A DNA stretch of 64,000 nucleotides from Sacculina carcini (lineage: Eukaryota; Arthropoda; Thecostraca; Sacculinidae). A model generated the notes under the pieces. It made no database searches and was not told the origin of the DNA. It saw only the letters and a program-made list of their open reading frames with translations. The position numbers and the translations under genes are program-made. How positions within the stretch are numbered: the stretch's first letter is position 1; the number at the start of each line of letters is the position of its first letter. Shown here one piece after another: positions 18,789 to 55,108 of this stretch. The DNA is taken from assembly GCA_916048095.2 (NCBI GenBank), contig OU696577.1, positions 8,986,940-9,050,939 on the forward strand. The letters run 5' to 3'.

Positions 18789-18954
<166 letters not shown>

Positions 18955-30923: not shown

Positions 30924-31313
30924 AAAAAAGCAAACAATAAGCCCAGGAATAAATATTAAAAAAATAGATGGATGAATTACAATGAAAAAAAGAAAATATC
31001 AGTCTATAGAAAAAAATAAAAAACACAGAATGAAAATTTCACGTATAGTTAGAACAAAAACAAGAGTTGCGATGTGGGTGCACAAACATTCCACCGGTCA
31101 GCGGCGAATAGGTGAGTGAAGCGAAAAAAAAGAACACATTTTCAAGTATATACAGACAATTGGCATACAATACGTAAACAACAATACAACTAGGTTAAGA
31201 TTACAGGACGTAAACAAACGCACGACAATACGACGTCAAGGCAAGTGTGTACACTCACTGTGTGGCAGGTGTGACCTGTGTGAGGTGAGGTATATTGGTT
31301 GTAGCTAGTTGAA

Positions 31314-32120: not shown

Positions 32121-32279
32121 TGCCGCACCGGCTCACTGTCTACTGGAGTTTAGCGAAACTTAATGACACACTACGAGCACCACGAAACACGTCCTTACAC
32201 GCCGAGCACAAAACACAGACTGACCTGTGTGATAAGTGATATATCCTATATTTATTCACCGATTGCCCTTGTTTTACAG

Positions 32280-32300
32280 AAAATGAGACAACCAACGACC
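32280..32300 (+). CDS. Seventh micro-exon copy, in inverted orientation
   Basis: Preceded by the same acceptor tract as the array exons (GATTGCCCTTGTTTTACAG) and 21 bases long, with 19 of 21 identical to the micro-exon at 34,934-34,954. In the same phase it reads NETTND. The donor is missing: after the 21st base the sequence jumps to AATTAAGTAG, the start of an array unit. Re-inverting about 27.36-32.30 kb would restore the normal order of modules, so this looks like an array exon caught at an inversion breakpoint. Probably not spliced as it stands. Confidence 0.5.
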
Positions 32301-33592
32301 AATTAAGTAGACGTGCAGCTTTGTCTGGCCACAAACCAGATCCAAAGCTGCATACCCCCAATTCGGCCTTGATATCCTAAACCAACTACACATTATGGAC
32401 AGATTACATAAGAGGGTAAAGAAGAAGCAAAATGATGAAATAATTTGGGACCAGAAGATACACATAGCAATAAGTTATAATGCTTTTATTGTCTAGTACC
32501 TCACACACAAACTCAACCCGACACAAACTCAACCCCTAGTTAGTGATCATTTCTTGACGTAACCTAACCTAAATGTCTAGCATATAAACCCGCCCGTTGT
32601 GGATCGTGTCGATCCGTTCTGGATCTTGAAGACAAATCCGTTAGTTTTGTATAAGAATGCATTCTACACGGTGAAATTGAACGTTTTATTGTCTATAGTT
32701 GCTGTCTGCGGGATATATTTATTTAATAAAAATGATCCATCGCTTATTTTACGTTTGAAACCACTGATCTATATCATTGAGCCCGCGCAGTTATTTTAGC
32801 CTCATATTCAAGCGTACAATGATACATGAATTTCATATACAATCTATAAAATAAAATGATTACAAATTTAAAAGTAAAAAATTTAACCTGTAAATATGCT
32901 AACCAATAGAAATGTCTAAATGTGAATATTTTCATTTTAATTTGGACAAAATATCCCTCGATCCGTCTCATATATGAACCTGCCTGTCGTAAAAATGTCC
33001 TTCACATGCAATGTATTTATTTTAGATTTTTAGCTAGATTTTGTCCTGAACGCTAGCGCTCTAGCGAATACTTCACGCGCTTTGCACATAAACTCTGATG
33101 TTGATTTCGCAGCAGCGAGAACTCATAGGCGGATGTAGTAAATATTTATAGTGGGGCTAAATATTTTATAATTGCTTGTTAAAAAGTTTTCTTTAGAAGA
33201 TATATCAAAATTATTGGAAAACATTGCATGTGAAGGATATTTTTAAGAACGTTTTTCAAGGAAGCTAAGCCCCCCTACAAAATTCTTGGATACGCCATTG
33301 TCTCCATTGATCGCTGTGTTAAATCTATCAGTCGTCGGTGGAAATGAAATGGTCTTGAATAAACGGTTATATCTTTTGAAATGTTGGCAATACATATTTG
33401 AAAAATATATCATCTTGTAGAAGACAAAATTTCCAATCTGTGGATATAAAAAACTGTCAATTCTGTTGAGCAGTTTTCCTCAAACCCGTGGCATAATATC
33501 CCCAAAATGTGAAAAACTCGTTTGTGCACACACACACAGACAGAATAACGTTTTGATTATTATCGGGTTTATATGCTGGTTTATATGTTTAC

Positions 33593-34115
33593 CTAGCCTA
33601 TGTTAACCTAGCCTATGGCCTTCTTGCATCCATTTTAACCCTAGGGCCCAAGTTTCATCAAAATCGGTCCAGTGGTTTAGGAGGAGATAGGGTAAACAGA
33701 CACAAATGACCTAAATGACCCTAAAAATTACCTCGGAGGTCAACAAAACCTAGCCTATGACCTTCTTGCATCCATTTTACCTCTAGGGACCAAGTTTCAT
33801 CAAAATCGGTCCAGTGGTTTAGGAGATAGGATAAACAGACACAAAGGACCTCAATGACCTTAAAAATTACCTCGGAGGTCAACAAAACCTAGCCTATGAC
33901 CTTCTTGCATCCATTTTACCTCTAGGGACCAAGTTTCATCAAAATCGGTCCAGTGGTTTAGGAGATAGGATAAACAGACACAAATGACCTCAATGACCTT
34001 GAAAATGACCTCGAATGTAAAAAAACTAGCCTATGGCCTTCTTGCATCCATTCTACCCCTAGAGACCAAGTTTCATCAAAATCGGTCCAGTGGTTTAGGA
34101 GGAGATACGAAACAA
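33593..34115. repeat. 140-base tandem repeats, unit 1 (4 copies)
   Basis: Copies begin CCTAGCCTATGRCCTTCTTG and contain AAGTTTCATCAAAATCGGTC. They alternate between two subtypes (AGGAGGAGATAGGG and AGGAGATAGGATAAAC endings). Confidence 0.85.
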
Positions 34116-34210
34116 ACAGACATTTAGAAAATTTGCAATCAGTGCATGGCAAAAAAATACCACCGATTCGGCCCTTCGGGCCGAATTGGATTAGGCCCTT
34201 CGAGCCGAAT

Positions 34211-35036
34211 TGGATAAATCAAATTGGATTAGTGCCTGCATTTGAGACAACCCTGTGGTCTCTAGCGTCTTCAAATGAAGAACAATGAGTGAGAAGTTTC
34301 CAACTATGAAGGCCAGATCTACTTGAAGCTGAGGATCCTGAATGATAATTTGCACCTCCTGCGCTGGTACAACTTTGTCTTAATCGAATCAATTTAACTG
34401 ACAGAGGGGAGAATTTGCGTTGGATTGTTATACAATATGGGAGACTTAGGTCCGGGCTATGGGGTGCCCACTCAAAATCAGTCTTGAGACTGATCCCTCG
34501 GCCTCCGAAGTTCTCTTTCAGCCAATCTCGGGTCTGCAGCGTCTGTATTCTGTATGGGTAAGCCCTGATATGGTTCACCAGCACTCTCCTTCAAGTCTCA
34601 CGGGAAATACCGAGGGACTGACTTCGCTTACGCACAGATCGCTCGGACTCTGCTGGAGAGACTCTCTCACACTTTCGATCAGCTCGGCTGTTCGCTTCTT
34701 GGGTTGTCCCGAGTGGCTTGGACGGTTCTCACTGGCATCATTGAGGTTCTACACGGTCCATACTTCTCGAAGTGGTCCACCCAGTTCTGAATTCTGCTTT
34801 TGGATGGAGCCTTTTCACATGCGAACTGACGCATGAAACTGTTTTGGGTTTTCTTAAACGAACCTATCTTGTAGTAAAATTTAACACAGTGTATGCATTG
34901 TTTCAGCTCCCACTGAGGTCTTGGTGTACTCACGGTCGGTGGTTGTCTCATTTCCTGTAAAACAAGGGCAATCGGTGAATAAATATAGGATATATCACTT
35001 AAAGTGTACACGGGGCCCGTGTTCATGGGTCACCCT
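34211..35036 (-). mobile_element. Internally deleted mariner, unit 1
   Basis: The outer end is TACAGGGTGACCC (minus strand) next to TA, the target of Tc1/mariner elements. The minus strand encodes a DUF4817-type N-terminus (VSTPRPQWELKQ, VKFYYKIGSFKKTQNSF, APSKSRIQNWVDHFEKYG), then a second helix-turn-helix region and AYPYRIQTLQ. It jumps straight to the C-terminal DDE segment (NFGGRGIS ... APHSPDLS), so the catalytic middle is gone. The opposite terminus is absent. The same deletion is in all six units. The 21-base micro-exon sits at the point where the transposase would start. Confidence 0.75.
34934..34954 (-). CDS. Micro-exon F (21 bases), reads NETTTD
   Basis: Bounded on the minus strand by acceptor GATTGCCCTTGTTTTACAG and donor GTGAGTACACC. 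Phase 1: the first two bases complete a Gly codon with the last base of the previous micro-exon, then Asn-Glu-Thr-Thr-Thr-Asp, then one base C. N-E-T is an N-glycosylation sequon. This is the most different of the six exons and the closest to the inverted copy at 32,280. Confidence 0.55.
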
Positions 35037-36462
35037 GTATAAGATGAAAAAAAGCTCCAGTTTTAGGTACAAAATTTGCTAGGGGTTACGATTTAGGTTT
35101 TTAAACCATAAAAACACGAATTTTAGGTGAACACTGTTGTGTTTTCTCGTTGAATAAAACACTGTATAATTAAGTAGACGTGCAGCATTGTCTGGCCACA
35201 AACCAGATCCAAAGCTGCATACCCCCAATTCGGCCTTGATATCCTAAACCAACTACACATTGTGGACAGGTTACATAAGAGGGTAAAGAAGAAGCAAAAT
35301 GATGAAATAATTTGGGACCAGAAGATACACATAGCAATAAGTTATAATGCTATAATTGTCTAGTACCTCACACACAAACTCAACCCGACACAAACTCAAC
35401 CCCTAGTTAGTGATCATTTCTTGACGTAACCTAACCTAAATGTCTAGCATATAAACCCGCCCGTTGTGGATCGTGTCGATCCGTTCTGGATCTTGAAGAC
35501 AAATCCGTTAGTTTTGTATAAGAATGCATTCTACACGGTGAAATTGAACGTCTTATTGTCTATAGTTGCTGTCTGCGGGACATATTTATTTCATAAAAGT
35601 GATCCATCGCTTATTTTACGTTTGAAACCACTGATCTATATCATTGAGCCCGCGCAGTTATTTTAGCCTCATATTCAAGCATACAATGATACATGAATTT
35701 CATATACAATCTATAAAATAAAATGATTACAAATTTAAAAGTAAAAAATTTAACCTGTAAATATGCTAACCAATAGAAATGTCTAAATATGAATATTTTC
35801 ATTTTAATTTGGACAAAATATCCCTCGATCCGTCTCATATATGAACCTGCCTGTCGTAAAAATGTCCTTCACATGCAATGTATTCATTTTAGATTTTTAG
35901 CTAGATTTTGTCCTGAACGCTAGCGCTCTAGCGAATACTTCACGCGCTTTGCACATAAACTCTGATGTTGATTTCGCAGCAGCGAGAAATCATAGGCGGA
36001 TGTAGTAAATATTTATAGTGGGGCTAAATATTTTATAATTGCTTGTTAAAAAGTTTTTTTAGAAGATATATCAAAATTATTGGAAAACATTGCATGTGAA
36101 GGATATTTTTAAGAACGTTTTTCAAGGAAGCTAAGCCCCCTACAAAATTCCTGGATACGCCATTGTCTCCATTGATCGCTGTGTTAAATCTATCAGTCGT
36201 CGGTGAAAATGAAATGGTCTTGAATAAACGGTTATATCTTTTGAAATGTTGGCAATACATATTTGAAAAATATATCATCTTGTAGAAGACAAAATTTCCA
36301 ATCTGTGGATATAAAAAACTGTCAATTCTGTTGAGCAGTTTTCCTCAAACCCGTGGCATAATATCCCCAAAATGTGAAAAACTCGTTTGTGCACACACAC
36401 ACACACACAGACAGAATAACGTTTTGATTATTATCGGGTTTATATGCTGGTTTATATGTTTA

Positions 36463-36985
36463 CCTAGCCTATGTTAACCTAGCCTATGGCCTTCTTGCAT
36501 CCATTTTAATCCTAGGGCCCAAGCTTCATCAATATCGGTCCAGTGGTTTAGGAGATAGGATAAACAGACACAAATGACCTCAATGACCTTGAAAATGACC
36601 CCGAATGTAAAAAAACCTAGCCTATGGCCTTCTTGCATCCATTTTACCCCTAGAGACCAAGTTTCATCAAAATCGGTCCAGTGGTTTAGGAGGAGATAGG
36701 GTAAACAGACACAAATGACCTAAATGACCTTAAAAATTACCTCGGAGGTCAACAAAACCTAGCCTATGACCTTCTTGCATCCATTTTACATCTAGGGCCC
36801 AAGTTTCATCAAAATCGGTCCAGTGGTTTAGGGAATAGGATAAACAGACACAAATGACCTCAATGACCTTGAAAATGACCTCGAATGTCAAAAAACTAGC
36901 CTATGGCCTTCTTGCATCCATTCTACCCCTAGAGACCAAGTTTCATCAAAATCGGTCCAGTGGTTTAGGAGGAGATACGAAACAA
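36463..36985. repeat. 140-base tandem repeats, unit 2 (4 copies)
   Basis: Same repeat as in unit 1, four copies, starting near 36,479, 36,617, 36,757 and 36,896. Confidence 0.85.
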
Positions 36986-37082
36986 ACAGACATTTAGAAA
37001 ATTTGCAATCAGTGCATGGCAAAAAAATACCATCGATTCGGCCCTTCGGGCCGAATTGGATTAGGCCCTTCGAGACGAATTG

Positions 37083-37905
37083 GATAAATCAAATTGGATC
37101 AGTGCCTGCATTTGAGACAACCCTGTGGTCCCTAGCGTCTTCAAATGAAGAACAATGAATGAGAAGTTTCCAACTATGAAGGCCAGATCTACTTGAAGCT
37201 GAGGATCCTGAATGATAATTTGCACTTTCTGCGCTGGTACAACTTTGTCTTAATCGAATCAATTAAACTGACAGAGGGGAGAATTTGCGTTGGATTGTTA
37301 TACAATATGGGGGACTTAAGTCCGGGCTATGGGGTGCCCACTCAAAATCAGTCTTGAGACTGATCCCTCGGCCTCCGAAGTTCTCTTTCAGCCAATCTCG
37401 GGTCTGCAGCGTCTGTATTCTGTATGGGTAAGCCCTGATATCGTTCACCAGCACTCTCCTTCAAGTCTCACGGGAAATACCGAGGGACTGACTTCGCTTA
37501 CGCACAGATCGCTCGGACTCTGCTGGAGAGACTCTCTCACGCTTTCGATCAGCTCGGCTGTTCGCTTCTTGGGTTGTCCCGAGTGGCTTGGACGGTTCTC
37601 ACTGGCATCATTGAGGTTCTACACGGTCCATACTTCTCGAAGTGGTCCACCCCGTTCTGAATTCTGCTTTTGGATGGAGCCTTTTCACATGCGAACTGAC
37701 GCATGAAACTGTTTTGGGTTTTCTTAAACGAACCTATCTTGTAGTAAAATTTAACACTGTGTGCTTTGTTTCTGCTCCCACTGAGGTCTTGGTGTACTCA
37801 CCGTAGTATCTTATGTAATAAGCTGTAAAACAAGGGCAATCGGTGAATAAATATAGGATATATCACTTAAAGTGTACACGGGGCCCGTGTTTTTGGGTCA
37901 CCCTG
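37083..37905 (-). mobile_element. Internally deleted mariner, unit 2
   Basis: Same structure and same internal deletion as in unit 1, with mariner end TACAGGGTGACCC next to TA. The transposase N-terminal frame here has extra lesions and is not open through the DUF4817 segment. Confidence 0.7.
37802..37822 (-). CDS. Micro-exon E (21 bases), reads YYIRYY
   Basis: Exactly between TTTTACAG and GTGAGT on the minus strand. Phase 1: junction Ala with the previous exon, then Tyr-Tyr-Ile-Arg-Tyr-Tyr, ending in G that begins the Gly codon shared with exon F. The frame that reads through the transposase has a stop here, the phase-1 frame does not. Confidence 0.6.
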
Positions 37906-39871
37906 TATAAGATGAAAAAAAGCTCCAGTTTTAGGTACAAAATTTGCTAGGGGTTACGATTTAGGTTTCAAGCCATAAAAACACGAATTTTAGGTGAAAA
38001 CTGTTGTGTTTTCTCGTTGAATAAAACACTGTATAATTAAGTAGACGTGCAGCATTGTCTGGCCACAAACCAGATCCAAAGCTGCATACCCCCAATTCGG
38101 CCTTGATATCCTAAACCAACTACACATTATGGACAGATTACATAAGAGGGTAAAGAAGAAGCAAAATGATGAAATAATTTGGGACCAGAAGATACACATA
38201 GCAATAAGTTATAATGCTTTTATTGTCTAGTACCTCACACACAAACTCAACCCGACACAAACTCGACCCCTAGTTAGTGATCATTTCTTGACGTAACCTA
38301 ACCTAAATGTTTAGCATCTAAACCCGCCCGTTGTGGATCGTGTCGATCCGTTCTGGATCTTGAAGACAAATCCGTTAGTTTTGTATAAGAATGCATTCTA
38401 CACGGTGAAATTGAACGTTAAATTGTCTATAGTTGCTGTCTGCGGGATATATTTATATAATGAAAATGATCCATCGCTTATTTTACGTTTGAAACCACTG
38501 ATCTATATCATTGAGCCCGCGCAGTTATTTTAGCCTCATATTCAAGCATACAATGATACATGAATTTCATATTCAATCAATAAAATAAAATGATTACAAA
38601 TTTAAAAGTAAAAAATTTAACCTGTAAATATGCTAACCAATAGAAATGTCTAAATGTGAATATTTTCATTTTAATTTGGACAAAATATCCCTCGATCCGC
38701 CTCATATATGAACCTGCCCGTCGTGCGGAATAATTCAGAACACAAACACGTAACAAACAATGAAATTCTAGCAAGTACACCCGCCCGTCATGCGGAACAA
38801 TTCATACTATTAAATTTGTATTCAATTCATAAGAGAAATGGAATATGAATTAAAAAAGAAAAGAGTAAACCCATAAAAAGTATAAATTTCTATATTTTTA
38901 TATTTATTTTGACAAAATAGTTTGCTTAAACCGTCTCATATTTAAACCTGCCCGTCGTGCTGAATAATTCAGAACTCAGACACGAAACAATGAAAAATGA
39001 CCAAACTTTTTCATCATAATGTTTCCAAAGTATATTTATAACTTAACATCACCATCTAGCATTGAAACCCGCCCGTTGTGACTAACAAATATTATATAAA
39101 TATAATAAATATTGAATTCATAAAAAATAAATATTGAATTCATAAAAAATAAATATTGAATTCATAAAAGAAAACAAATACAAATTTAAATATAAAAAAG
39201 TAAACCCATAACAACTATTAACCAATAGAAAAGTCTAAATATGAATGTTTTTATTTAAGATTTTTAGCTAGATTTTTGTCCTGAACGCTAGCGCTCTAGC
39301 GAATACGTCATGCGCTTTGCACATAAACTCTGATGTTGATTTCGCAGCAGCGAGAGATCATAGACGGATGAAGTAAATATTTATAGTGGGGCTAAATATT
39401 TTATAATGGCTTATTTTATAATGGCTTGTTGGCTTGATGTTTATTAGATGATATATCAAAATTAGGGGAGAACATTGAATGTGAAGGACATTTTTAAAAA
39501 CGTATTTCAAAGAGGCTAAGCCCCCCTGCAAAATTCCTGGATCCGCCATTGTCTCCATTGATCGCTGTGTTAAATCTATCAGTCGTCGGTGGAAATGAAA
39601 TGGTCTTGAATAAACGGTTATATCTTTTGTAATTTTGGCACTATATATTTGAAAAATATATCATCTTGTAGAAGACATAATTTCCAATCTGTGGATATAA
39701 AAAACTGTCAATTCTGTTGAGCAGTTTTCCTCAAACCCGTGGCATAAAATCCCCAAAATGTGAAAAACTAGTTTGTGCACACACACACAGACAGAATAAC
39801 GTTTTGATTATTATCGGGTTTATATGCTGGTTTATATATATATATATTTATATATATATATATATATATAT

Positions 39872-40255
39872 GCAACAAAACCTAGCCTATGACCTTCTTG
39901 CATCCATTTTACCCCTAGGGCCCAAGTTTCATCAAAATCGGTCCAGTGGTTTAGGAGGAGATAGGGTAAACAGACACAAAAGACCTAAATGACCTTAAAA
40001 ATTACCTCGGAGGTCAACAAAACCTAGCTTATGACCTTCTGGCATCCATTTTACCTCTAGGGACCAAGTTTCATCAAAATCGGTCCAGTGGTTTAGGAGA
40101 TAGGATAAACAGACACAAATGACCTCAATGACCTTGAAAATGACCTCGAATGTCAAAAAAACCTAGCCTATGACCTTCTTGCATCCATTTTACCTCTAGG
40201 GACCAAGTTTCATCAAAATCGGTCCAGTGGTTTAGGAGGAGATACGAAACAAACA
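39872..40255. repeat. 140-base tandem repeats, unit 3 (3 copies)
   Basis: Three copies, starting near 39,888, 40,020 and 40,163, preceded by a (TA)n tract at about 39,835-39,870. Confidence 0.85.
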
Positions 40256-40350
40256 GACATTTACAAAAATTTGCAATCAGTGCATGGCAAAAAATACCAT
40301 CGATTAGGCCCTTCGGGTCGAATTGGATTAGGCCCTTCGAGCCGAATTGG

Positions 40351-41173
40351 ATAAATCAAATTGGATTAGTGCCTGCATTTGAGACAACCCTGTGGTCTCT
40401 AGCGTCTTCAAATGAAGAACAATGAATGAGAAGTTTCCAACTATGAAGGCCAGATCTACTTGAAGCTGAGGATCCTGAATGATTATTTGCACTTCCTGCG
40501 CTGGTACAACTTTGTCTTAATCGAATCAATTAAACTGACAGAGGGGAGAATTTGCGTTGGATTGTTATACAATATGGGGGACTTAAGTCCGGGCTATGGG
40601 GTGCCCACTCAAAATCAGTCTTGAGACTGATCCCTCGGCCTCCGAAGTTCTCTTTCAGCCAATCTCGGGTCTGCAGCGTCTGTATTCTGTATGGGTAAGC
40701 CCTGATATCGTTCACCAGCACTCTCCTTCAAGTCTCACGGTAAATACCGAGGGACTGACTTCGCTTACGCACAGATCGTTCGGACTCTGCTGGGGAGACT
40801 CTCTCACACTTTCGATCAGCTCGGCTGTTCGCTTCTTGGGTTGTCCCGAGTGGTTTGGACGGTTCTCACTGGCATCATTGAGGTTCTACACGGTCCATAC
40901 TTCTCGAAGTGGTCCACCCAGTTCTGAATTCTGCTTTTGGATGGAGCCTTTTCACATGCGAACTGACGCATGAAACTGTTTTGGGTTTTCTTGAACGAAC
41001 CTATCTTGTAGTAAAATTTAACACACTGTGTGCTTTGTTTCTGCTCCCACTGAGGTCTTGGTGTACTCACCGTCGTCGTTTAAGTAATAATCTGTAAAAC
41101 AAGGGCATCGATTAATAAATATAGGATATATCACTTAAAGTGTACACGGGGCCCGTGTTTTTGGGTCACCCTG
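40351..41173 (-). mobile_element. Internally deleted mariner, unit 3
   Basis: Same deletion derivative as in unit 1, with a few changes in the 5' leader next to the micro-exon (AGGGCATCGATTAATAAA). Confidence 0.7.
41071..41091 (-). CDS. Micro-exon D (21 bases), reads YYLNDD
   Basis: Between TTTTACAG and GTGAGT on the minus strand. Phase 1: junction Asp, then Tyr-Tyr-Leu-Asn-Asp-Asp, ending in G (shared Ala codon with exon E). It has a stop in the transposase frame and is open in the shared exon frame. Confidence 0.6.
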
Positions 41174-43054
41174 TATAAGATGAAAAAAGCTCCAGTTTTA
41201 GGTACAAAATTTGCTAGGGGTTACGATTTAGGTTTCAAGCCATAAAAACACGAATTTTAGGTGAAAACTGTTGTGTTTTCTCGTTGAATAAAACACTGTA
41301 TAATTAAGTAGACGTGCAGCATTGTCTGGCCACAAACCAGATCCAAAGCTGCATACCCCCAATTTGGCCTTGATATCCTAAGCCAACTACACATTATGGA
41401 CAGATTACATAAGAGGGTAAAGAAGAAGCTAAATGATGAAATAATTTGTGACCAGAAGATACACATAGCAATAAGTTATAATGCTTTTATTGTCTAGTAC
41501 CTCACACACAAACTCAACCCGACACAAACTCAACCCCTAGTTAGTGATCATTTCTTGACGTAACCTAACCTAAATGTTTAGCATCTAAAACCGCCCGTTG
41601 TGGATCGTGTCGATCCGTTCTGGATCTTGAAGACAAATCCGTTAGTTTTGTATAAGAATGCATTCTACACGGTGAAATTGAACGTTTTATTGTCTATAGT
41701 TGCTGTCTGCGGGATATATTTATTTAATAAAAATGATCCATCGCTTATTTTACGTTTGAAACCACTGATCTATATCATTGAGCCCGCGCAGTTATTTTAG
41801 CCTCATATTCAAGCGTACAATGATACATGAATTTCATATACAATCTATAAAATAAAATGATTACAGATTTAAAAGTAAAAAATTTAACCTGTAAATATGC
41901 TAACCAATAGAAATGTCTAAATGTGAATATTTTCATTTTAATTTGGACAAAATATCCCTCAACCCGCCTCATATATGAACCTGCCCGTCGTGCGGAATAA
42001 TACAGAACACAAACACGTAACAAACAATGAAATTATAGCAAGTAAACCCGCCCGTCATGCGGAACAATTCATACTATTAAATTTGTATTCAATTCATAAG
42101 AGAAATGGAATATGAATTAAAAAAGAAAAGAGTAAACCCATAAAAAGTATAAATTTCTATATTTTTATATTTATTTTGACAAAATAGTTTGCTTAAACCG
42201 TCTCATATTTAAACCTGCCCGTCGTGCTGAATAATTCAGAACTCAGACACGAAACAATGAAAAATGACCAAACTTTTTCATCATAATGTTTCCAAAGTAT
42301 ATTTATAACTTAACATCACCATCTAGCATTGAAGCCCGCCCGTTGTGCCTAACAAATATTATATAAATATAATAAATATTGAATCCATAAAAGAAAACAA
42401 ATACAAATTTAAATAGAAAAAAGTAAACCCATAACAACTATTAACCAATAGAAAAGTCTAAATATGAATGTTTTTATTTAAGATTTTTAGCTAGATTTTG
42501 TCCTGTACGCTAGCGCTCTAGGGAATACGTCATGCGCTTTGCAAATAAACTCTGATGTTGATTTCGCAGCAGCGAGAGATCATAGACGGATGAAGTAAAT
42601 ATTTATAGTGGGGCTAAATATTTTATAATGCCTTGTTGAAAATGTTTCTTAGATGATATATCAAAATTAGGGGAAAACATTGCATGTGAAGGACATTTTT
42701 AAAAACGTATTTCAGAGAGGCTAAGCCCCCCTGCGAAATTCCTGGATCCGCCATTGTCTCCATTGATCGCTGTGTTAAATCTATCAGTCGTCGGTGGAAA
42801 TGAAATGGTCTTGAATAAATGATTATATCTTTTGTAATGTTGGCACTACATATTTGAAAAATATATCTTCTTGTAGAAGACATAATTTCCAATCTGTGGA
42901 TATAAAAAACTGTCAATTCTGTTGAGCAGTTTTCCTCAAAGCCGTGGCATAAAATCCCCAAAATGTGAAAAACTAGTTTGTGCACACACACACAGACAGA
43001 ATAACGTTTTGATTATTATCGGGTTTATATGCTGGTATATATGTATATATGCAA

Positions 43055-43985
43055 CAAAACCTAGCCTATGACCTTCTTGCATCCATTTCACCCCTAGGGC
43101 CCAAGTTTCATCAAAATCGGTCCAGTGGTTTAGGAGGAGATAGGGTAAACAGACACAAATGACCTAAATGACCTTAAAAATTACCTCGGAGGTCAACAAA
43201 ACCTAGCCTATGACCTTCTTGCATCCATTTTACCTCTAGAGACCAAGTTTCATCAAAATCGGTCCAGTGGTTTAGGATATAGGATAAGCAGACACAAATG
43301 ACCTAAATGACCTTGAAAATGACCTCGAATGTCAAAAAAAACCTAGCCTATGGCCTTCTTGCATCCATTTTAACCCTAGGGCCCAAGTTTCATCAAAATC
43401 GGTCCAGTGGTTTAGGAGGAGATAGGGTAAACAGACACAAATGACCTAAATGACCTTAAAAATTACCTCGGAGGTCAACAAAACCTAGCCTATGACCTTC
43501 TTGCATCCATTTTACATCTAGGGACCAAGTTTCATCAAAATCGGTCCAGTGGTTTAGGATATAGGATAAGCAGACACAAATGACCTCAATGACCTTGAAA
43601 ATGACCTCGAATGTCAAAAAACCTAGCCTATGGCCTTCTTGCATCCATTTTAACCCTAGGGCCCAAGTTTCATCAAAATCGGTCCAGTGGTTTAGGAGGA
43701 GATAGGGTAAACAGACACAAATGACCTAAATGACCTTAAAAATTACCTCGGAGGTCAACAAAACCTAGCCTATGACCTTCTTGCATCCATTTTACATCTA
43801 GGGACCAAGTTTCATCAAAATCGGTCCAGTGGTTTAGGAGATAGGATAAACAGACACAAATGACCTCAATGACCTTGAAAATGACCTCGAATGTAAAAAA
43901 ACCTAGCCTATGGCCTTCTTGCATCCATTCTACCCCTAGAGACCAAGTTTCATCAAAATCGGTCCAGTGGTTTAGGAGGAGATAC
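43055..43985. repeat. 140-base tandem repeats, unit 4 (7 copies)
   Basis: The longest tract: seven copies near 43,059, 43,200, 43,345, 43,485, 43,621, 43,761 and 43,905. A dimer of the two subtypes repeats with a period of about 276 bases, so the last expansion step copied pairs. Confidence 0.85.
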
Positions 43986-44090
43986 GAAGCAAACAGACAT
44001 TTAGAAAATTTGCAATCAGTGCATGGCAAAAAAATACTATAGATTCGGCCCTTCGGGCCGAATTGGATTAGGCCCTTCGAGCCGAATTGG

Positions 44091-44914
44091 ATAAATCAAA
44101 TTGGATTAGTGCCTGCATTTGAGACAACCCTGTGGTCTCTAGCGTCTTCAAATGAAGAACAATGAATGAGAAGTTTCCAACTATGAAGGCCAGATCTACT
44201 TGAAGCTGAGGATCCTGAATGATAATTTGCACTTCCTGCGCTGGTACAACTTTGTCTTAATCGAATCAATTAAGCTGACAGAGGGCAGAATTTGCGTTGG
44301 ATTGTTATACAATATGGGGGACTTAGGTCCGGGCTATGGGGTGCCCACTCAAAATCAATCTTGAGACTGATCCCTCGGCCTCCGAAGTTCTCTTTCAGCC
44401 AATCTCGGGTCTGCAGCGTCTGTATTATGTATGGGTAAGCCCTGATATCGTTCACCAGCACTCTCCTTCAAGTCTCACGGGAAATACCGAGGGACTGACT
44501 TCGCTTACGCACAGATCGTTCGGACTCTGCTGGCGAGACTCTCTCACACTTTCGATCAGCACGGCTGTTCGCTTCTTGGGTTGTCCCGAGTGGCTTGGAC
44601 GGTTCTCACTGGCATCATTGATGTTCTACACGGTCCATACTTCTCGAAGTGGTCCACCCAGTTCTGAATTCTGCTTTTGGATGGAGCCTTTTCACATGCG
44701 AACTGACGCATGAAACTGTTTTGGGTTTTCTTAAACGAACCTATCTTGTAGTAAAATTTAACACAGTGTATGCTTTGTTTCTGCTCCCACTGAGGTCTTG
44801 GTGTACTCACCTTCTTCGCCTGAGTAATCATCTGTAAAACAAGGGCAATCGGTGAATAAATATAGGATATATCACTTAAAGTGTACACGGGGCCCGTGTT
44901 TTTGGGTCACCCTG
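44091..44914 (-). mobile_element. Internally deleted mariner, unit 4
   Basis: Same derivative as in unit 1, with the mariner end next to TA and the DUF4817-type N-terminus readable for about 100 residues. Confidence 0.75.
44811..44831 (-). CDS. Micro-exon C (21 bases), reads DYSGEE
   Basis: Between TTTTACAG and GTGAGT on the minus strand. Phase 1: junction Asp, then Asp-Tyr-Ser-Gly-Glu-Glu, ending in G (shared Asp codon with exon D). A Tyr among acidic residues is the usual setting for tyrosine sulfation. Confidence 0.6.
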
Positions 44915-45941
44915 TATAAGATGAAAAAAGCTCCAGTTTTAGGTACAAAATTTGCTAGGGGTTACGATTTAGGTTTTTAAACCATAAAAACACGAATTTT
45001 AGGTGAAAACTGTTGTGTTTTCTCGTTGAATAAAACACTGTATAATTAAGTAGACGTGCAGCATTGTCTGGCCACAAACCAGATCCAAAGCTGCATACCC
45101 CCAATTCGGCCTTGATATCCTAAACCAACTACACATTATGGACAGATTACATAAGAGGGTAAAGAAGAAGCAAAATGATGAAATAATTTGGGACCAGAAG
45201 ATACACATAGCAATAAGTTATAATGCTTTTATTGTCTAGTACCTCACACACAAACTCAACCCGAAACAAACTCAACCCCTAGTTAATGATCATTTCTTGA
45301 CGTAACCTAACCTAAATGTTTAGCATCTAAACCCGCCCGTTGTGGATCGTGTCGATCCGTTCTGGATCTTGAAGACAAATCCGTTAGTTTTGTATAAGAA
45401 TGCATTCTACACGGTGAAATTGAACGTTTTATTGTCTATAGTTGCTGTCTGCGGGATATATTTATTTAATAAAAATGATCCATCGCTTATTTTACGTTTG
45501 AAACCACTGATCTATATCATTGAGCCCGCGCAGTTATTTTAGCCTCATATTCAAGCGTACAATGATACATGAATTTCATATACAATCTATAAAATAAAAT
45601 GATTACAGATTTAAAAGTAAAAAATTTAACCTGTAAATATGCTAACCAATAGAAATGTCTAAATGTGAATATTTTCATTTTAATTTGGACAAAATATCCC
45701 TCCAACCGCCTCATATATGAACCTGCCCGTCGTGCGGAATAATTCAGAACACAAACACGTAACAAACAATGAAATTCTAGCAAGTAAACCCGCCCGTCAT
45801 GCGGAACAATTCATACTATTAAATTTGTATTCAATTCATAAGATAAATGGAATATGAATTAAAAAAGAAAAGAGTAAACCCCTAAGAAGTATAAATTTCT
45901 ATATTTATATATATTTTTTGACAAAATAGTTTGCTTAAACC

Positions 45942-46745
45942 TGTAACATTTTTGTTCATCAGTCGTCACAATTCTAGTGAAGCAGACCTCTTAATGTTGT
46001 GCGCCGCGATAACGCTTGATGTCCGATTCCAAACAGTAGTTTTGTTGAAACAATGTATTTCGTCGTGATATTGAAGGTTGCAGTTCTTAACTCTATCGTC
46101 CTAACGTTATATTCAATGTTCTATCCTATCTGTTCTGCCTGTATCTGCTAGTCTGTCTCTCCTGTCTGTCTTCCTATCTGTTCTCTTGTTCTCCATACTG
46201 CCGCTGCTCTTCTATTCCTATCTCCATACTGCCGCTGCTCTTCTATCTCTATATCCATCCTCTCTATCCCATATCTCGACTGCCGCTGCTCGTCTATTCC
46301 TATATCCATCCTCTCTATCCCCCGAATGGTGAAAACAATGTGCTTATATAGTGCCAACTAGCGCCGCTTCCCAGCTCCAAGCGGCGTACGGCCTCATTAG
46401 TTACGGACCGCAAGGTCACCACAATGCAGCACGCCCATAGTCTTACACACTGGTGTGTGTAATATATGCGTGTGCACGTGCTGCCCTGCTGTCTCTTGAT
46501 GTCTTGCAGTTGTGTGTGTGTGTGCCTACGTGTGTGCAACCAATGCTGTGTTCTGTATGCTGACCTATTCTGGTGATGTATGTGTTTATGTGTGTGTGCG
46601 CGTGCAACCACTACTTTCTATTCTACCATCTATCCTATGCTATATCTAATACACAACATGCAATATACAATGTTCCAAAACAGACGATTACAAAAATAAG
46701 AATATAAGATATATATAACACCGCAAAATATAAAACATTGTTACA
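45942..46745. mobile_element. Solo LTR (fossil)
   Basis: 804 bases starting TGTAACA and ending TGTTACA (TG...CA ends), with a 5-base target duplication AAACC on both sides, in block B of unit 5 only. A TATA-like TTATATAG lies inside. No coding region. The size, ends and duplication fit a solo LTR of an LTR retrotransposon. The family is unknown. Confidence 0.65.
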
Positions 46746-47809
46746 AAACCGTCTCATATTTAAACCTGCCCGTCGTGCTGATAATTCAGAACTCAGACAC
46801 GAAACAATGAAAAATGACCAAACTTTTTCATTATAATGTTTCCAAAGTATATTTATAACTTAACATCACCATCTAGCATTGAAACCCGCCCGTTGTGCCT
46901 AACAAATATTATATGAATAAAATAAATATAGAATTCATAAAAGAAAACCAATACAAATTTAATAGAAAAAAGTAAACCCATAACAACTATTAACCAATAG
47001 AAAAGTCTAAATATGAATGTTTATATTTTAGATTTTTAGCTAGATTTTGATAAATAGAACCTAACAAATATTATAGCATTGAAACCCGCCCGTTGTGCCT
47101 AACAAATATTATATAAATAGAATAAATATTGAATTCATAAAAGAAAATAAATATTGAATTCATAAAAGAGAATAAATATTGAATTCATAAAAGAAAATAA
47201 ATATTGAATTCATAAAAGAAAACAAATACAAATTTAAATATAAAAAAGTAAACTCATAACAACTATTAACCAATAGAAAAGTCTAAATATGAATGTGTAT
47301 ATTTAAGATTTTTAGCTAGATTTTGTCCTGAACGCTAGCGCTCTAGCGAATACGTCATGCGCTTTGCACATAAATTCTGATGTTGATTTCGCAGCAGCGA
47401 GAGATCATAGACGGATGAAGTAAATATTTATAGTGGGGCTAAATATTTTATAATGTCTTATTTTATAATGGCTTGTTGGCTTGATGTTTCTTAGATGATA
47501 TATCAAAATTAGGGGAAATTTTGCATTGTATTGCATTGCATTGCATGTGAAGGACATTTTTGAAAACGTATTTCAGAGAGGCAAAGCCCCCTGCAAAATT
47601 CCTGGATCCGCCATTGTCTCCATTGATCGCTGTGTTAAATCTATCAGTCGTCGGTGGAAATGAAATGGTCTTGAATAAACGCTTATATCTTTCAGAATGT
47701 TGGCACTACATATTTGAAAAATATATCATCTTGTAGAAGACATAATTTCCAATCTGTGGATATAAAAAACTGTCAATTCTGTTGAGCAGTTTTCCTCAAA
47801 CCCGTGGCA

Positions 47810-48130
47810 AGTTTCATCAAAATCGGTCCTGTGGTTTAGGAGGAGATAGGGTAAACAGACACAAATGACCTAAATGACCTTAAAAATTACCTCGGAGGTC
47901 AACAAAACCTAGCCTATGACCTTCTTGCATCCATTTTACCTCTAGGGACCAAGTTTCATCAAAATCGGTCCAGTGGTTTAGGAGATAGGATAAACAGACG
48001 CAAATGACCTCAATGACCTTGAAAATGACCTCGAATGTCAAAAAAACCTAGCCTATGGCCTTCTTGCATCCATTCTACCCCTAGAGACCACGTTTCATCA
48101 AAATCGGTCCAGTGGTTTAGGAGGAGATAC
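47810..48130. repeat. 140-base tandem repeats, unit 5 (about 2.5 copies)
   Basis: A partial copy near 47,806 runs directly from R1 sequence, followed by two full copies near 47,907 and 48,047. Confidence 0.8.
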
Positions 48131-48210
48131 GAAACAAACAGACATTTAGAAAATTTGCAATCAGTGCATGGCAAAAAAATACCATCGATTAGGCCCTTCG
48201 AGCCGAATTG

Positions 48211-49035
48211 GATCAATCAAATTGGATTAGTGCCTGCATTTGAGACAACCCTGTGGTCTCTAGCGTCTTCAAATGAAGAACAATGAATGAGAAGTTTCCA
48301 ACTATGAAGGCCAGATCTACTTGAAGCTGAGGATCCTGAATGATAATTTGCACTTCCTGCGCTGGTACAACTTTGTCTTAATCGAATCAATTAAACTGAC
48401 AGAGGGGAGAATTTGCGTTGGATTGTTATACAATATGGGGGACTTAAGTCCGGGCTATGGGGTGCCCACTCAAAATCAGTCTTGAGACTGATCCCTCGGC
48501 CTCCGAAGTTCTCTTTCAGCCAATCTCGGGTCTGCAGCGTCTGTATTCTGTATAGGTAAGTCCTGATATCGTTCACCAGCACTCTCCTTCAAGTCTCACG
48601 GGAAATACCGAGGGACTGACTTCGCTTACGCACAGATCGTTCGGACTCTGCTGGCGAGACTCTCTCACACTTTCGATCAGCACGGCTGTTCGCTTCTTGG
48701 GTTGTCCCGAGTGGCTTGGACGGTTCTCACTGGCATCATTGATGTTCTAGACGGTCCATACTTCTCGAAGTGGTCCACCCAGTTCTGAATTCTGCTTTTG
48801 GATGGAGCCTTTTCACATGCGAACTGACGCATGAAACTGTTTTGGGTTTTCTTAAACGAACCTATCTTGTAGTAAAATTTAACACAGTGTATGCTTTGTT
48901 TCAGCTCCCACTGAGGTCTTGGTGTACTCACCATGGTCGTATTCGTAACCTCCTGTAAAACAAGGGCAATCGGTGAATAAATATAGGATATATCACTTAA
49001 AGTGTACACGGGGCCCGTGTTTTTGGGTCACCCTG
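48211..49035 (-). mobile_element. Internally deleted mariner, unit 5
   Basis: Same derivative as in unit 1. Here the last three bases of the micro-exon plus the next bases read ACCATGGTGAGT, so the transposase frame begins M-V-S-T-P-R-P-Q-W-E in a Kozak context. This suggests the ancestral transposase start lay exactly at the exon/donor border. Confidence 0.75.
48932..48952 (-). CDS. Micro-exon B (21 bases), reads GYEYDH
   Basis: Between TTTTACAG and GTGAGT on the minus strand. Phase 1: junction Gly, then Gly-Tyr-Glu-Tyr-Asp-His, ending in G (shared Asp codon with exon C). Only 8 of 21 bases match micro-exon F, while the flanking intron sequences are almost identical. Confidence 0.6.
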
Positions 49036-49470
49036 TATAAGATGAAAAAAAGCTCCAGTTTTAGGTACAAAATTTGCTAGGGGTTACGATTTAGGTTTCA
49101 AGCCATAAAACACGAATTTTAGGTGAAAACTGTTGTGTTTTCTCGTTGGATAAAACACTGTATAATTAAGTAGACGTGCAGCATTGTCTGGCCACAAACC
49201 AGATCCAAGGCTGCATACCCCCAATTCGGCCTTGATATCCTAAACCAACTACACATTATGGACAGATCACATAAGAGGGTAAAGAAGAAGCAGTATGATG
49301 AAATAATTTAGGACCAGAAGATACACATAGCAATAAGTTATAATGTTTTTATTGTCTTGTACCTCACACACAAACTCAACCCGACACAAACTCAACCCCT
49401 AGTTAGTGACCATTTCTTGACGTAACCTAACCTAAATGTCTAGCATATAAACCCGCCCGTTGTGGATCGT

Positions 49471-50435
49471 GTCGATCAAAATTGACGATCAAAATGTCTA
49501 TCAAAATTATCTCATAATCTGCTCTCTAAGTTATTTTGCGACATCACATCCTGGGCATCTTCCCGCCAACTCATCATCAACCATTCTAAAACTGAATACA
49601 TGGTCTTCCATTCTCCAAGAATCTCTCCCCCGTCTCTCTCTGTCTCCCTATCTGCTTGTGTTCGTAATCTTGGCGTCTACTTCGATCCCTCTCTGTCATT
49701 TGCCAACAATTTCGCGCATATATCGCGATCCTGCAGGCTCATTCTCAGACAACTCTGTCCCATCCGTGCTTACATCGACACTAACTCGGCCATTACTCTC
49801 ATCAAATCCTCAATTTTCCCTCGTCTGGACTATTGTAACTCTTTGTTTCTTCACGCCTCATCTAAATCTATTCGCTCCCTACGAATGTTATTGAACCAAT
49901 CATGTCGCTTTGTCTTCCGTCTTCCTCCGCGCACGCCAACTTCTCCCTACCTACATAAACTTGGCTGCCTTCCTGTTCAGGCTCGGATCAACTATAAACT
50001 GTGCCGTCTTATCTTTAAAATTATCCTCTCAGCCTCCTCTCCTTCTTACCTTCGCTCTCTACTATCTGAACCTCAACACTCAGGTCGTCGTCTTCACTCT
50101 CTTCACTGTCCTCGAGCAGTTTTGGAGTCGCCTTGGTCGGCCAAATCTTTCTACTTCTTTGCTCCTCGTCTCTATAACTCCTTGCCTTCTCGTATCCGGT
50201 CGTCCCCTTCACTTCGATCCTTTCTTCTGCTCTGCATGCACATCTTCTTGTGTCTACCTCTCCCTGTTGAATGGGTTCGTGTTTTGATTTTGTATATACG
50301 CCTGTTAAACCTTGTTTATCATGCTCTTAGCTATACTGATATTTGTTTCATTTATTTCATGAACATACATACTATATTATTTTTTATCTCATCCTGTCAT
50401 CGCACCATTGTATATTTGGCGCTATATTAAATACA

Positions 50436-50466
<31 letters not shown>
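49471..50466 (+). mobile_element. LINE 3' end inserted in unit 6
   Basis: 5'-truncated LINE copy of about 1 kb. It encodes the C-terminal part of a LINE reverse transcriptase (IFPRLDYCNSLF, RPP-type RLPPRTPTSPYLHKLG, LPVQARINYKLC, FFAPRLYNSLPSRIR) and ends in GCGCTATATTAAATACATG with a (TTG)n tail. It interrupts block B only in unit 6, so it came after the array formed. The family differs from the full-length LINE at 27.5-32.2 kb and matches the tail at 22.3 kb. Confidence 0.8.
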
Positions 50467-50860
50467 CTGGATTTTGAAGACAAATCCGTTAGGTTTGTAT
50501 AAGAATGCATTCTACGCGGTGAAATTGAACGTTTTATTGTCTATAGTTGCTGTCTGCGGGACATATTTATTTAATAAAAATGATCCATCGCTTATTTTAC
50601 GTTTGAAACCACTGATCTATATCATTGAGCCCGCGCAGTTATTTTAGCCTCATATTCAAGCATACAATGATACATGAATTTCATATTCAATCTATAAAAT
50701 AGAATGAATACAAATTTAAAAGTAAAAAATTTAACCTGTAAATATGCTAACCAATAGAAATGTCTAAATGTGAATATTTTCATTTTAATTTGGACAAAAT
50801 ATCCCTCGATCCGCCTCATATATGAACCTGCCCGTCGTGCGGAATAATTCAGAACACAAG

Positions 50861-51127
50861 GTTAAGGTTAAATGCCTAAGTGGCAGCTGCTACACGGGAA
50901 GAAGCCGAAGCTTATGAACACACAGGCGTGGCCCGTGCAGCTCGCTGCCACCGCAGAACCGACCCTCTCCACGCTATGGCGCCACAAGGACGTAAGACGT
51001 ATTAGAGAGGGCCACCCCCCAGAATGCATGGCACAACTCATGACTGATATCTGGTACCATTTACTGCTGGGTTGACAGGGGCTGTGGGATTGTAGAATTC
51101 GCCCAATGAAATTCTGCTCCGCCGGGT
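50861..51127 (-). mobile_element. SINE-like interspersed repeat, copy 2
   Basis: 267 bases inserted in block B of unit 6, with target duplication ACAA. The ends are GGTTAAGGTTAA and CCGCCGGGTT on the + strand. It matches 1,205-1,398 in reverse. The strand is set only relative to that copy. Confidence 0.6.
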
Positions 51128-51478
51128 TACAAACACGTAACAAACAATGGAATTCTAGCAAGTAAACCCGCCCGTCATGCGGAACAATTCATACTATTAA
51201 ATTTGTATTCAATTCATAAGAGAAATGGAATATGAATTAAAAAAGAAAAGAGTAAACCCATAAAAAGTATATATTTCTATATTTATATATTTATTTTGAC
51301 AAAATAGTTTGCTTAAACCGTCTCATATTTAAACCTGCCCGTCGTGCTGAATAATTCAGAACTCAGACACGAAACAATGAAAAATGACCAAACTTTTTCA
51401 TTATAATGTTTCCAAAGTATATTTATAACTTAACATCACCATCTAGCATTGAAACCCGCCCGTTGTGCCTAACAAATC

Positions 51479-51689
51479 AAAATTGATGTTCACTCACGCA
51501 CCCGGTATAATTATAAATATTATGTAAATGAATCACTTCATCGGGCACAATCAATATATTTTTAGTACGAACGTTTTCGCCTAACGGCTTCTTCAGGTAC
51601 TGAAATTCATTCAAATTAACGACCAAATTGCACAATTATATAGCAGACAATAAAAAACACATGCATCATAACAATTGAGTGACTCTAGT
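51479..51689 (-). mobile_element. Possible Penelope-type remnant with hammerhead-like core
   Basis: 211 bases that interrupt AACAAAT/ATTATATAAAT of unit 6. On the minus strand at about 51,566-51,600 it has CTGAAGA, a stem AGCC-GTTA-GGC, then GAAAA. This is the CUGANGA ... GAAA core of hammerhead ribozymes found in the terminal repeats of Penelope-like elements. Helix III looks imperfect. No protein is encoded. Confidence 0.4.
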
Positions 51690-52399
51690 ATTATATAAAT
51701 AAAATAAATATTGAATTCATAAAAGAAAACAAACACAAATTTAAATAGAAAAAAGTAAACCCATAACAACTATTAACCAATAGAAAAGTCTAAATATGAA
51801 TGTTTATATTTTAGATTTTAGCTAGATTTTGTCCTGAACGCTAGCGCTCTAGCGAATACTTCATGCGCTTTGCACATAAACTCTGATGTTGATTTCGCAG
51901 TAGCGAGAGATCATAGAGGGATGAAGTAAATACTTATAGTGGGGCTAAATATTTTATAATGGCTTATTTTATAATGGCTTGTTGGCTTGATGTTTCTTAG
52001 ATGATATATCAAAATTAGGGGAAAACATTGCATGTGAAGGACATTTTTAAAAACGTATTTCAGAGAGGCTAAGCCCCCCTGCAAAATTCCTGGATCCGCC
52101 ATTGTCTCCATTGATCGCTGTGTTAAATCTATCAGTCGTCGGTGGAAATGAAATGGTCTTGAATAAACGCTTATATCTTTTGGAATGTTGGCACTACATA
52201 TTTGAAAATTATATCATCTTGTAGAAGACATCATTTCCAATCTGTGGATATAAAAAACTGTCAATTCTGTTGAGCAGATTTCCTCAAACCCGTGGCATAA
52301 AATCCCCAAAATGTGAAAAACTAGTTTGTGCACACACACACAGGCAGAATAACGTTTTGATTATTATCGGGTTTATATGCTGGTTTATATGTATATATG

Positions 52400-53050
52400 C
52401 AACAAAACCTAGCCTATGACCTTCTTGCATCCATTTTACCCCTAGGGCCCAAGTTTCATCAAAATCGGTCCAGTGGTTTAGGAGGAGATAGGGTAAACAG
52501 ACACAAATGACCTAAATGACCTTAAAAATTACCTCGGAGGTCAACAAAACCTAGCCTGTGACCTTCTTGCATCCATTTTACCTCGAGGGACCAAGTTTCA
52601 TCAAAATCGGTCCAGTGGTTTAGGAGATAGGATAAACAGACACAAATGACATCAATGACCTTGAAAATGACATCGAATGTCAAAAAAACCTAGCCTATGG
52701 CCTTCTTGCATCCATTTTAACCCTAGGGCCCAAGTTTCATCAAAATCGCTCCAGTGGTTTAGGAGGAGATAGGGTAAACAGACACAAATGACCTAAATGA
52801 CCTTAAAAATTACCTCGGAGGTCACCAAAACCTAGCCTATGACCTTCTTGCATCCATTTTACCTCTAGGGACCAAGTTTCATCAAAATCGGTCCAGTGGT
52901 TTAGGAGATAGGATAAACAGACGCAAATGACCTCAATGACCTTGAAAATGACCTCGAATGTCAAAAAAAACCTAGCCTATGGCCTTCTTGCATCCATTCT
53001 ACCCCTAGAGACCAAGTTTCATCAAAATCGGTCCAGTGGTTTAGGAGGAG
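52400..53050. repeat. 140-base tandem repeats, unit 6 (5 copies)
   Basis: Five copies near 52,407, 52,548, 52,687, 52,829 and 52,971, again alternating between two subtypes. Confidence 0.85.
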
Positions 53051-53159
53051 ATACGAAACAAACAGACATTTAGAAAATTTGCAATCAGTGCATGGCAAAA
53101 AAATACCATCGATTAGGCCCTTCGGGCCGAATTGGATTAGGCCCTTCGAGCCGAATTGG

Positions 53160-53983
53160 ATAAATCAAATTGGATTAGTGCCTGCATTTGAGACAACCCT
53201 GTGGTCTCTAGCATCTTCAAATGAAGAACAATGAATGAGAAGTTTCCAACTATGAAGGCCAGATCTACTTGAAGCTGAGGATCCTGAATGATAATTTGCA
53301 CTTTCCGCGCTGGTACAACTTTGTCTTAATCGAATCAATTAAACTGACAGAGGGCAGAATTTGCGTTGGATTGTTATACAATATGGGGGACTTAGGTCCG
53401 GGCTATGGGGTGCCCACTCAAAATCAATCTTGAAACTGATCCCTCGGCCTCCGAAGTTCTCTTTCAGCCAATCTCGGGTCTGCAGCGTCTGTATTCTGTA
53501 TAGGTAAGTCCTGATATCGTTCACCAGCACTCTCCTTCAAGTCTCACGGGAAATACCGAGGGACTGACTTCGCTTACGCACAGATCGTTCGGACTCTGCT
53601 GGCGAGACTCTCTCACACTTTCGACCAGCTCGGCTGTTCGCTTCTTGGGTTGTCCCGAGTGGCTTGGACGGTTCTCACTGGCATCATTGATGTTCTACAC
53701 GGTCCATACTTCTCGAAGTGGTCCACCCAGTTCTGAATTCTGCTTTTGGATGGAGCCTTTTCACATGCGAACTGACGCATGAAACTGTTTTGGGTTTTCT
53801 TAAACGAACCTATCTTGTAGTAAAATTTAACACAGTGTATGCTTTGTTTTAGCTCCCACTGAGGTCTTGGTGTACTCACCGTAGTAGTCTGGGTCATAAT
53901 CTGTAAAACAAGGGCAATCGGTGAATAAATATAGGATATATCACTTAAAGTGTACACGGGGCCCGTGTTTTTGGGTCACCCTG
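53160..53983 (-). mobile_element. Internally deleted mariner, unit 6
   Basis: Same derivative as in unit 1. The DUF4817 frame is readable for about 110 residues, through NPRSEQPSWSKV. Confidence 0.75.
53880..53900 (-). CDS. Micro-exon A (21 bases), reads YDPDYY
   Basis: Between TTTTACAG and GTGAGT on the minus strand. Phase 1: the first two bases AT complete a codon from an upstream exon outside the array, then Tyr-Asp-Pro-Asp-Tyr-Tyr, ending in G (shared Gly codon with exon B). It is the most 5' micro-exon visible. Upstream exons were not found in 54-64 kb. Confidence 0.6.
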
Positions 53984-55108
53984 TATAAGATGAAAAAAGC
54001 TCCAGTTTTAGGTACAAAATTTGCTAGGGGTTACGATTTAGGTTTCAAGCCATAAAAACACGAATTTTAGGTGAAAACTGTTGTGTTTTCTCGTTGAATA
54101 AAACACCGTATAATTAAGTAGACGTGCAGCATTGTCTGGCCACAAACCAGATCCAAAGCTGCATACCCCCAATTCGGCCTTGATATCCTAAACCAACTAC
54201 ACAGTATGGACAGATTACATAAGAGGGTAAAGAAGAAGCAGAATGATGAAAAAATTTGGGACCAGAAGATACACATAGCAATAAGTTATAATGCTTTTAT
54301 TGTCTAGTACCTCACACACAAACTCAACCCGACACAAACTCAACCCCTAGTTAGTGATCATTTCTTGACGTAACCTAACCTAAATGTTTAGCATCTAAAC
54401 CCGCCCGTTGTGGATCGTGTCGATCCGTTCTGGATCTTGAAGACAAATCCGTTAGTTTTGTATAAGAATGCATTCTACACGGTGAAATTGAACGTTTTAT
54501 TGTCTATAGCTGCTGTCTGCGGGATATATTTATTTAATAAAAATGATCCATCGCTTATTTTACGTTTGAAACCACTGATCTATATCATTGAGCCCGCGCA
54601 GTTATTTTAGCCTCATATTCAAGCATACAATGATACATGAATTTCATATTCAATCAATAAAATAAAATGATTACAAATTTAAAAGTAAAAAATTTAACCA
54701 GTAAATATGCTAACCAATAGAAATGTCTAAATGTGAATATTTTCATTTTAATTTGGACAAAATATCCCTCGATCCGCCTCATATATGAACCTGCCCGTCG
54801 TGCGGAATAATTCAGAACACAAACACGTAACAAACAATGAAATTCTAGCAAGTAAACCCGCCCGTCATGCGGAACAATTCATACTATTAAATTTGTATTC
54901 AATTCATAAGAGAAATGGAATATGAATTAAAAAAGAAAAGAGTACACCCATAAAAAGTATAAATTTCTATATTTTTATATTTATTTTGACAAAATAGTTT
55001 GCTTAAACCGTCTCATATTTAAACCTGCCCGTCGTGCTAAATAATTCAGAACTCAGACACGAAACAATGAAAAATGACCAAACTTTTTCATCATAATGTT
55101 TCCAAAGT

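Follow-up and report, generated by a model that had tools for sequence, protein, structure and literature searches.

A putative array of transposon-born 21-base micro-exons in the genome of Sacculina carcini

Introduction

Micro-exon genes of schistosomes combine very small symmetric exons with fast protein change, and transposable elements are enriched in them (PMC4350168), while the bicycle genes of aphids consist of many micro-exons of one phase under strong positive selection, almost all of their internal exons being in phase 2 (PMC9168663). Two further processes generate exons of related kinds: the exonization of transposable elements, Alu and others, in which a new exon arises from splice signals within the transposon (PMC1852406), and tandem exon duplication, which yields arrays of homologous, equal-length, symmetric exons (PMC9013439). 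The present study concerns a 64,000-base stretch of contig C9 of the Sacculina carcini genome (C9:8986940-9050939, hereafter the window), in which six 21-base segments of the minus strand, here called slots, had been proposed to be the exons of a micro-exon gene comparable with those of schistosomes. We consider that these slots lie in repeated copies of a Tc1/mariner-like transposon and that five of them are probably transposon-born micro-exons, tandemly duplicated and under diversifying selection, a reading to which we assign a probability of about 0.6.

The locus resembles each of the described systems in part. With the schistosome genes it would share tiny symmetric exons, fast change and a link to transposable elements (PMC4350168), but here exon and splice signals lie within the start region of a single transposon, all slots measure 21 bases in near-identical units, and the array belongs to a crustacean and is known from sequence alone. 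To the comparison with schistosomes that the sequence-only reading had drawn, the locus contributes five tiny symmetric phase-1 slots with a coding signature, any kinship being one of analogy only. Like the exons of bicycle genes, the slots would be micro-exons of one phase with signs of positive selection; unlike them, they are in phase 1 only, so that the phase-2 character of bicycle internal exons is absent, and they are 21 bases long, consist of transposon sequence and encode heptads without cysteine. Exon and splice signals both lie inside transposon sequence, as in exonization, but here the new exon would have been tandemly multiplied, rewritten by apparent diversifying selection and read off the transposase frame. 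Finally, the array of homologous, equal-length, symmetric putative exons recalls tandem exon duplications, from which it differs in that slots 1-5 disagree with one another at 6-12 of their 21 bases in surroundings that are about 95-97% alike. No transposon-born micro-exon array was found by title in the open-licence literature searched.

Results

Slots, borders and reading frame

The six slots are as follows (positions in the window).

e1, 53880..53900, minus strand: diversified, phase-1 peptide YDPDYY
e2, 48932..48952, minus strand: diversified, phase-1 peptide GYEYDH
e3, 44811..44831, minus strand: diversified, phase-1 peptide DYSGEE
e4, 41071..41091, minus strand: diversified, phase-1 peptide YYLNDD
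e5, 37802..37822, minus strand: diversified, phase-1 peptide YYIRYY
e6, 34934..34954, minus strand: native-type transposase start, ATG AGA CAA CCA CCG ACC GTG AGT...

All six positions given by the sequence-only reading were confirmed, and so were the common acceptor and donor flanks: on the minus strand CCCTTGTTTTACAG stands directly 5' and GTGAGTACACCAAGACC directly 3' of every 21-mer, the tract of segment 4 being slightly changed further upstream (ATTAATCGATGCCC). The minus strand of the window has six occurrences of the donor-like GTGAGTACACC and the plus strand has none, and neighbouring segments are spaced 2,847-4,927 bases apart. When segments 1-5 were read together with one e3-like copy from elsewhere on C9, phase 1 was free of stops while each of the other frames contained two, in agreement with the single open frame that had been claimed; the phase-1 frame of segment 6 is also open. 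The peptides, with the junction residues G, D, D, A and G, were reproduced as they had been given.

The flanks are transposon sequence

The flanks of all six segments belong to one Tc1/mariner-like transposon family, of which two parts are needed here (TIR, terminal inverted repeat).

53901..53983, minus strand: left end of the transposon, from the TIR CAGGGTGACCC to TTTTACAG, 83 bp before the slot and repeated ahead of all six slots at a distance of 82-83 bp
53613..53879, minus strand: 5' coding part of the transposase, helix-turn-helix (HTH) DUF4817, starting with GTG AGT ACA CC (V S T P), i.e. the supposed donor

The 264-Mb, 43-contig genome was searched with a 121-base query over slot 1, the best 40 of 60 candidates being scored; the matches listed comprise 17 in a 286-kb stretch of C9 and 23 on contigs other than C9. 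Thirty loci were compared, namely the complete C9 cluster of 17 and 13 of the matches elsewhere. In each of the 13 compared copies outside the cluster, the slot is the start of the transposase, with the ATG at slot positions 4-6, and the flanks are variants of the transposase start MAESTTVSTPRPQWELKQ (12 copies) or MRQPPTVSTPRPQ (the copy L018). In 28 of the 30 loci, the left TIR precedes the slot by 81-83 bases, its outer flank ending in TA, and the right TIR was found in nine, the flank beyond it beginning with TA (one mismatch allowed on either side); complete elements could be measured in eight loci and are 923-950 or 1,361-1,367 bases long. In addition, the open frame that surrounds the unit 1 slot has a match to DUF4817, which is of HTH type, with an E value of 6.4e-18. 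The hallmarks of a Tc1/mariner-like element, i.e. the terminal inverted repeat, the TA target and the HTH of the transposase, are therefore present.

It follows from the position of the slot in the element that the supposed acceptor, TTTTACAG, belongs to the 5' untranslated region (UTR) of the transposon and that the supposed donor consists of the transposase codons for VSTP. Even outside the cluster, AG precedes the slot in 13 of 13 compared copies and GTGAGT follows it in 12, L025 having TTGAGT instead. The sharing of acceptor and donor among the six segments therefore provides no independent evidence for splicing, because both are transposon sequence.

Segment 6 (GAAATGAGACAACCACCGACC) retains the native start. 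It is identical in four other units of C9, and two bases distinguish it from one further C9 unit and likewise from L018 on contig C6. Among the native slots of the cluster, five of six are identical and the sixth carries two changes, 1.1 being expected from the flanks. The sequence-only reading had counted six exons, but segment 6 bears the transposon's own start, the kind seen in all 13 compared copies outside the C9 cluster, and is probably a native transposase start and no exon; the slot sequences thus speak for five micro-exons and not for six. A role of segment 6 as an equal exon was rejected on account of this native-type start. Its use as a terminal exon reading through the donor was rejected too: it would meet a stop after 17 more residues, but the first AATAAA or ATTAAA is 1.9 kb off.

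Divergence is confined to the slot

In the other five slots, change is concentrated to a degree that is not seen in their surroundings. Over the region from -520 to +1140 shared by the six units (1,660 bases, counting windows for which 70% or more of the comparisons were available), mean pairwise divergence is 0.460 in the slot, whereas the other 21-base windows (n = 1,584) average 0.022 and do not exceed 0.107. The slot forms the single sharp peak of the region, and the edges of this peak fall exactly on AG and GT. A wider scan contains other windows of up to 0.289, and those listed fall beyond the edges of homology.

A tree of 13 units was built from the flanks only, with the slot excluded and slots 1-5 of a second array (array B, described below) omitted as duplicates of those in the window. 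The six diversified units form one clade among the native units (support 81), and a likelihood test did not reject a single diversified clade, which the best tree already contains. For this clade and its stem, the flanks have accumulated 0.064 substitutions per site, from which 1.3 changes would be expected per 21 bases, compared with at least 25 distinct column changes in the slot. Parsimony on the whole flank tree, native branches included, requires 40 slot steps, the probability of 22 or more being 1.6e-19; by phase-1 codon position, 22 of the 40 fall on first, 9 on second and 9 on third bases.

Old exons whose introns had been homogenised by conversion were also considered as a source of this pattern and were rejected. 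The 50 bases before the slot differ by 1.3%, and by 1.8% further off, i.e. the upstream flank is as alike next to the slot as at a distance; the adjoining 50 bases on the downstream side are more divergent than those further off (4.2% against 2.1%), yet ten times less so than the slot.

Changes within the slots carry a coding signature

With the cluster-native slot as ancestor, only 1.2 of 25 changes are silent in phase 1 (null 5.3, P = 0.013), compared with 7.5 and 7.6 of 25 in the other two frames, and with a wider native set as ancestor the value is again 1.2 of 25 (null 4.8). At thresholds of 1.0 and 1.5 silent changes, P is 0.014 and 0.030 for phase 1; if the best of the three frames is taken, it rises to 0.041 and 0.078. 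Codon 3 reads CCA, GAA, TCA, TTA and ATA in the five slots, which gives five amino acids with the same third base, the native one. Tyr occupies 12 of 30 codons, where the null has a mean of 0.9 and a maximum of 9 in 3,000 runs. All 11 diversified slots (five of which are array B duplicates of those in the window) end in G and all 19 native ones in C; G at the donor -1 position is favoured by splicing. When 264 kb of C9 (5,000 bases of it N) were scanned for short exons in phase 1 that contain two or more Tyr and consist of Y/D/E/N/G to 60% or above, seven matches were obtained on the minus strand, at six places, all of them slots of the window's array or array B, and none on the plus strand; the thresholds had been chosen after the slots were known, and e3 and e6 fall below them.

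These observations support the view that segments 1-5 behave like symmetric phase-1 coding micro-exons. Of the earlier proposal, the micro-exons are retained for these five slots, in which change is bounded by AG and GT, rarely silent, free of stops, rich in Tyr and marked by a final G, and are given up for segment 6. Local hypermutation without selection, or a conflict at the DNA level such as escape from silencing, might be envisaged instead, since the change is located at the start codon of the transposase, and the transposase frame has 7.5 silent changes among the 25, where the null gives 5.4 (P = 0.15 for an equal or higher number). We regard it as improbable, however, because the native slots of the same region change little, slots 4 and 5 contain stops in the transposase frame, and the edges coincide with AG and GT; moreover, it would leave the enrichment of Tyr and the G at the donor unexplained.

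The array and its surroundings

The features that make up the array in the window are the following.

32301..55108, minus strand: composite units in tandem, recognised by self-alignment, each with one slot and made up of a transposon fragment, satellite and further modules
32233..32300, plus strand: piece of the transposon 5' end in inverted orientation, containing a slot of native type (AAAATGAGACAACCAACGACC) and marking the left border of the array
43052..43984, no strand assigned: 139-142 bp satellite, present also at 33605-34101, 39873-40238, 47808-48123 and 52400-53053

The shortest period of the array is about 2.87 kb, and several units are lengthened. At the five places in the array, a tandem-repeat finder recorded 2.3 to 6.6 copies of the satellite; together with the DUF4817 match and the TIRs, this bears out the mariner and satellite modules of which the introns had been said to be made. 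Besides this array (array A), C9 contains a second copy at 9239595-9258367 (array B), all six slots of which are identical to those of array A, and a shorter array C with a native slot at 9282761 and an e3-like one at 9287078. Among the matches listed, single native units lie at 9056824, 9173704 and 9307510. In none of the three arrays was a unit seen downstream of the native one.

The surroundings contain retroelement-like frames, satellites and duplications that are 96.7-99.8% identical outside the array. Positions 28119-46261 and 14227-18884 of the window have copies 97-99% identical within 264 kb of C9, one of them split by an inserted retroelement-like stretch. A retroelement-like open frame with a DUF1759 match lies at 5516-7927 on the plus strand, and a reverse transcriptase with endonuclease, in an open frame of 1,022 residues, at 27930-30998 on the minus strand; the stretch at 55492-59111 (minus strand) resembles a long terminal repeat (LTR) element by eye only, and its frame at 57514-58425 has no Pfam match. 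Two exons of a WAP-type, Cys-rich protein are found at 919-2175 on the plus strand. Its part at 1567-2172 has two database matches, both from Pollicipes pollicipes (56% and 54% identity), and the second exon is 56% identical to the Pollicipes "prespore protein Dp87-like"; copies within 200 kb on C9 are 98-100% alike, apart from one at 58% and a partial one. As a host of the window's array, the WAP gene is not supported, since its exons in the window are on the plus strand and the copy on the strand of the array ends about 66 kb upstream of slot 1. At L037:6259-6783 (minus strand), an open frame was noticed that looks secreted, since it starts like a signal peptide; it also contains a Cys-rich module, which we take to resemble VWC. 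An Rfam scan gave no match at gathering cut-offs, and a tRNA scan with the bacterial code found none.

Discussion

The array may have arisen as follows. A truncated Tc1/mariner-like transposon within a larger composite repeat has by chance an acceptor-like stretch in its 5'UTR (CCCTTGTTTTACAG) and, 21 bases from it, the donor-like transposase codons GTGAGT..., with the start codon between the two. The 21 bases so enclosed would, in a single lineage of the duplicated composite, have come to be transcribed and spliced as a symmetric phase-1 micro-exon, off the transposase frame, and duplication of the unit would then have given five copies. Diversifying selection might have rewritten their peptides base by base in favour of Tyr and acidic residues, with the introns on either side remaining about 95-97% alike. 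Because 21-base symmetric exons can be added or skipped without a break of the frame, the gene would function by providing a modular, variable, acidic and Tyr-rich stretch, and its product might be secreted and sulphated.

Several results weigh against this scenario. The match between the diversified and native slots is moderate, 45-53 of 105 cells depending on the native version (column-shuffle P 0.001-0.02), a shift by +21 scores level with the cluster-native slot (45 versus 45), and third bases agree with the cluster-native ancestor in only 22 of 35 cells. The frame test is modest, with P = 0.013 for this frame and, under a related null, 0.04-0.08 when the best of the three frames is taken, and a frame-blind column permutation with six slots gave a weak result (P = 0.15). 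The e3-like slot of array C (match C9:9287078-9287198, L003) differs from e3 at one of 21 bases while the flanks are 4.5% apart, and this branch is therefore not accelerated. A 5' exon outside the array, which the sequence-only reading had suggested looking for, did not emerge: about 70 kb upstream yielded no convincing first exon with a signal peptide and a phase-1 donor, and of the five candidates there, three came from WAP exons and two from one ATG antisense to a retroelement-like frame. Neither AATAAA nor ATTAAA occurs within 1.9 kb after segment 6. Protein relatives of the Tyr/Asp-rich heptads had likewise been suggested as a check, and none was found for the joined heptads by a search of limited sensitivity, which recognises a candidate only if its length is similar and three 5-residue words are shared.

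The moderate likeness to the native slot and the score of the shifted one are also what would be expected if unrelated 21-base Tyr/Asp coding pieces had replaced the transposon start, e.g. through exchange or template switching, from one splice border to the other, with an older host micro-exon gene, and no intermediate slot is present among the 30 loci compared. This possibility seems unlikely, because slot length is equal in every copy, the flanks up to the slot edge form one young clade, and a replacement exactly at both splice borders requires a special process. Besides, when the slots are compared with the common native slot of the transposon, 27 of 35 third bases agree, as opposed to 6 of 35 first bases, and 22 of 35 third bases agree with the cluster-native slot.

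The failure of the searches up- and downstream to find a first or last exon could also be accommodated by a once-real micro-exon array that is now a dead relic in a rearranged, retroelement-filled and duplicated region. Near-identical duplications and retroelement-like frames do crowd this region, the slots of array B are identical to those of array A, and the e3-like copy in array C changes at the background rate. Nevertheless, AG and GT are kept at 10 of 10 borders of slots 1-5, and all five slots are open in phase 1, which renders a relic a rather unlikely explanation as well.

If micro-exons born from a transposon are indeed present here, their meaning would lie in the question of how micro-exon genes originate. 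A single locus presents the slot in both its native and its rewritten state, next to each other and between near-identical flanks, and thus it could be read here directly how a micro-exon is born from a transposon, multiplied and diversified, a course of events that is testable with RNA and population data. Tentatively, and at slightly less than even odds, the array might represent a new route to hypervariable protein arrays, in which the start of a transposon was exonized off-frame and copied with its unit, and in which 7-residue exons were rewritten about 20-fold faster than the adjoining introns; it would then be an effector gene of the micro-exon type, of young age, in a barnacle that is possibly parasitic.

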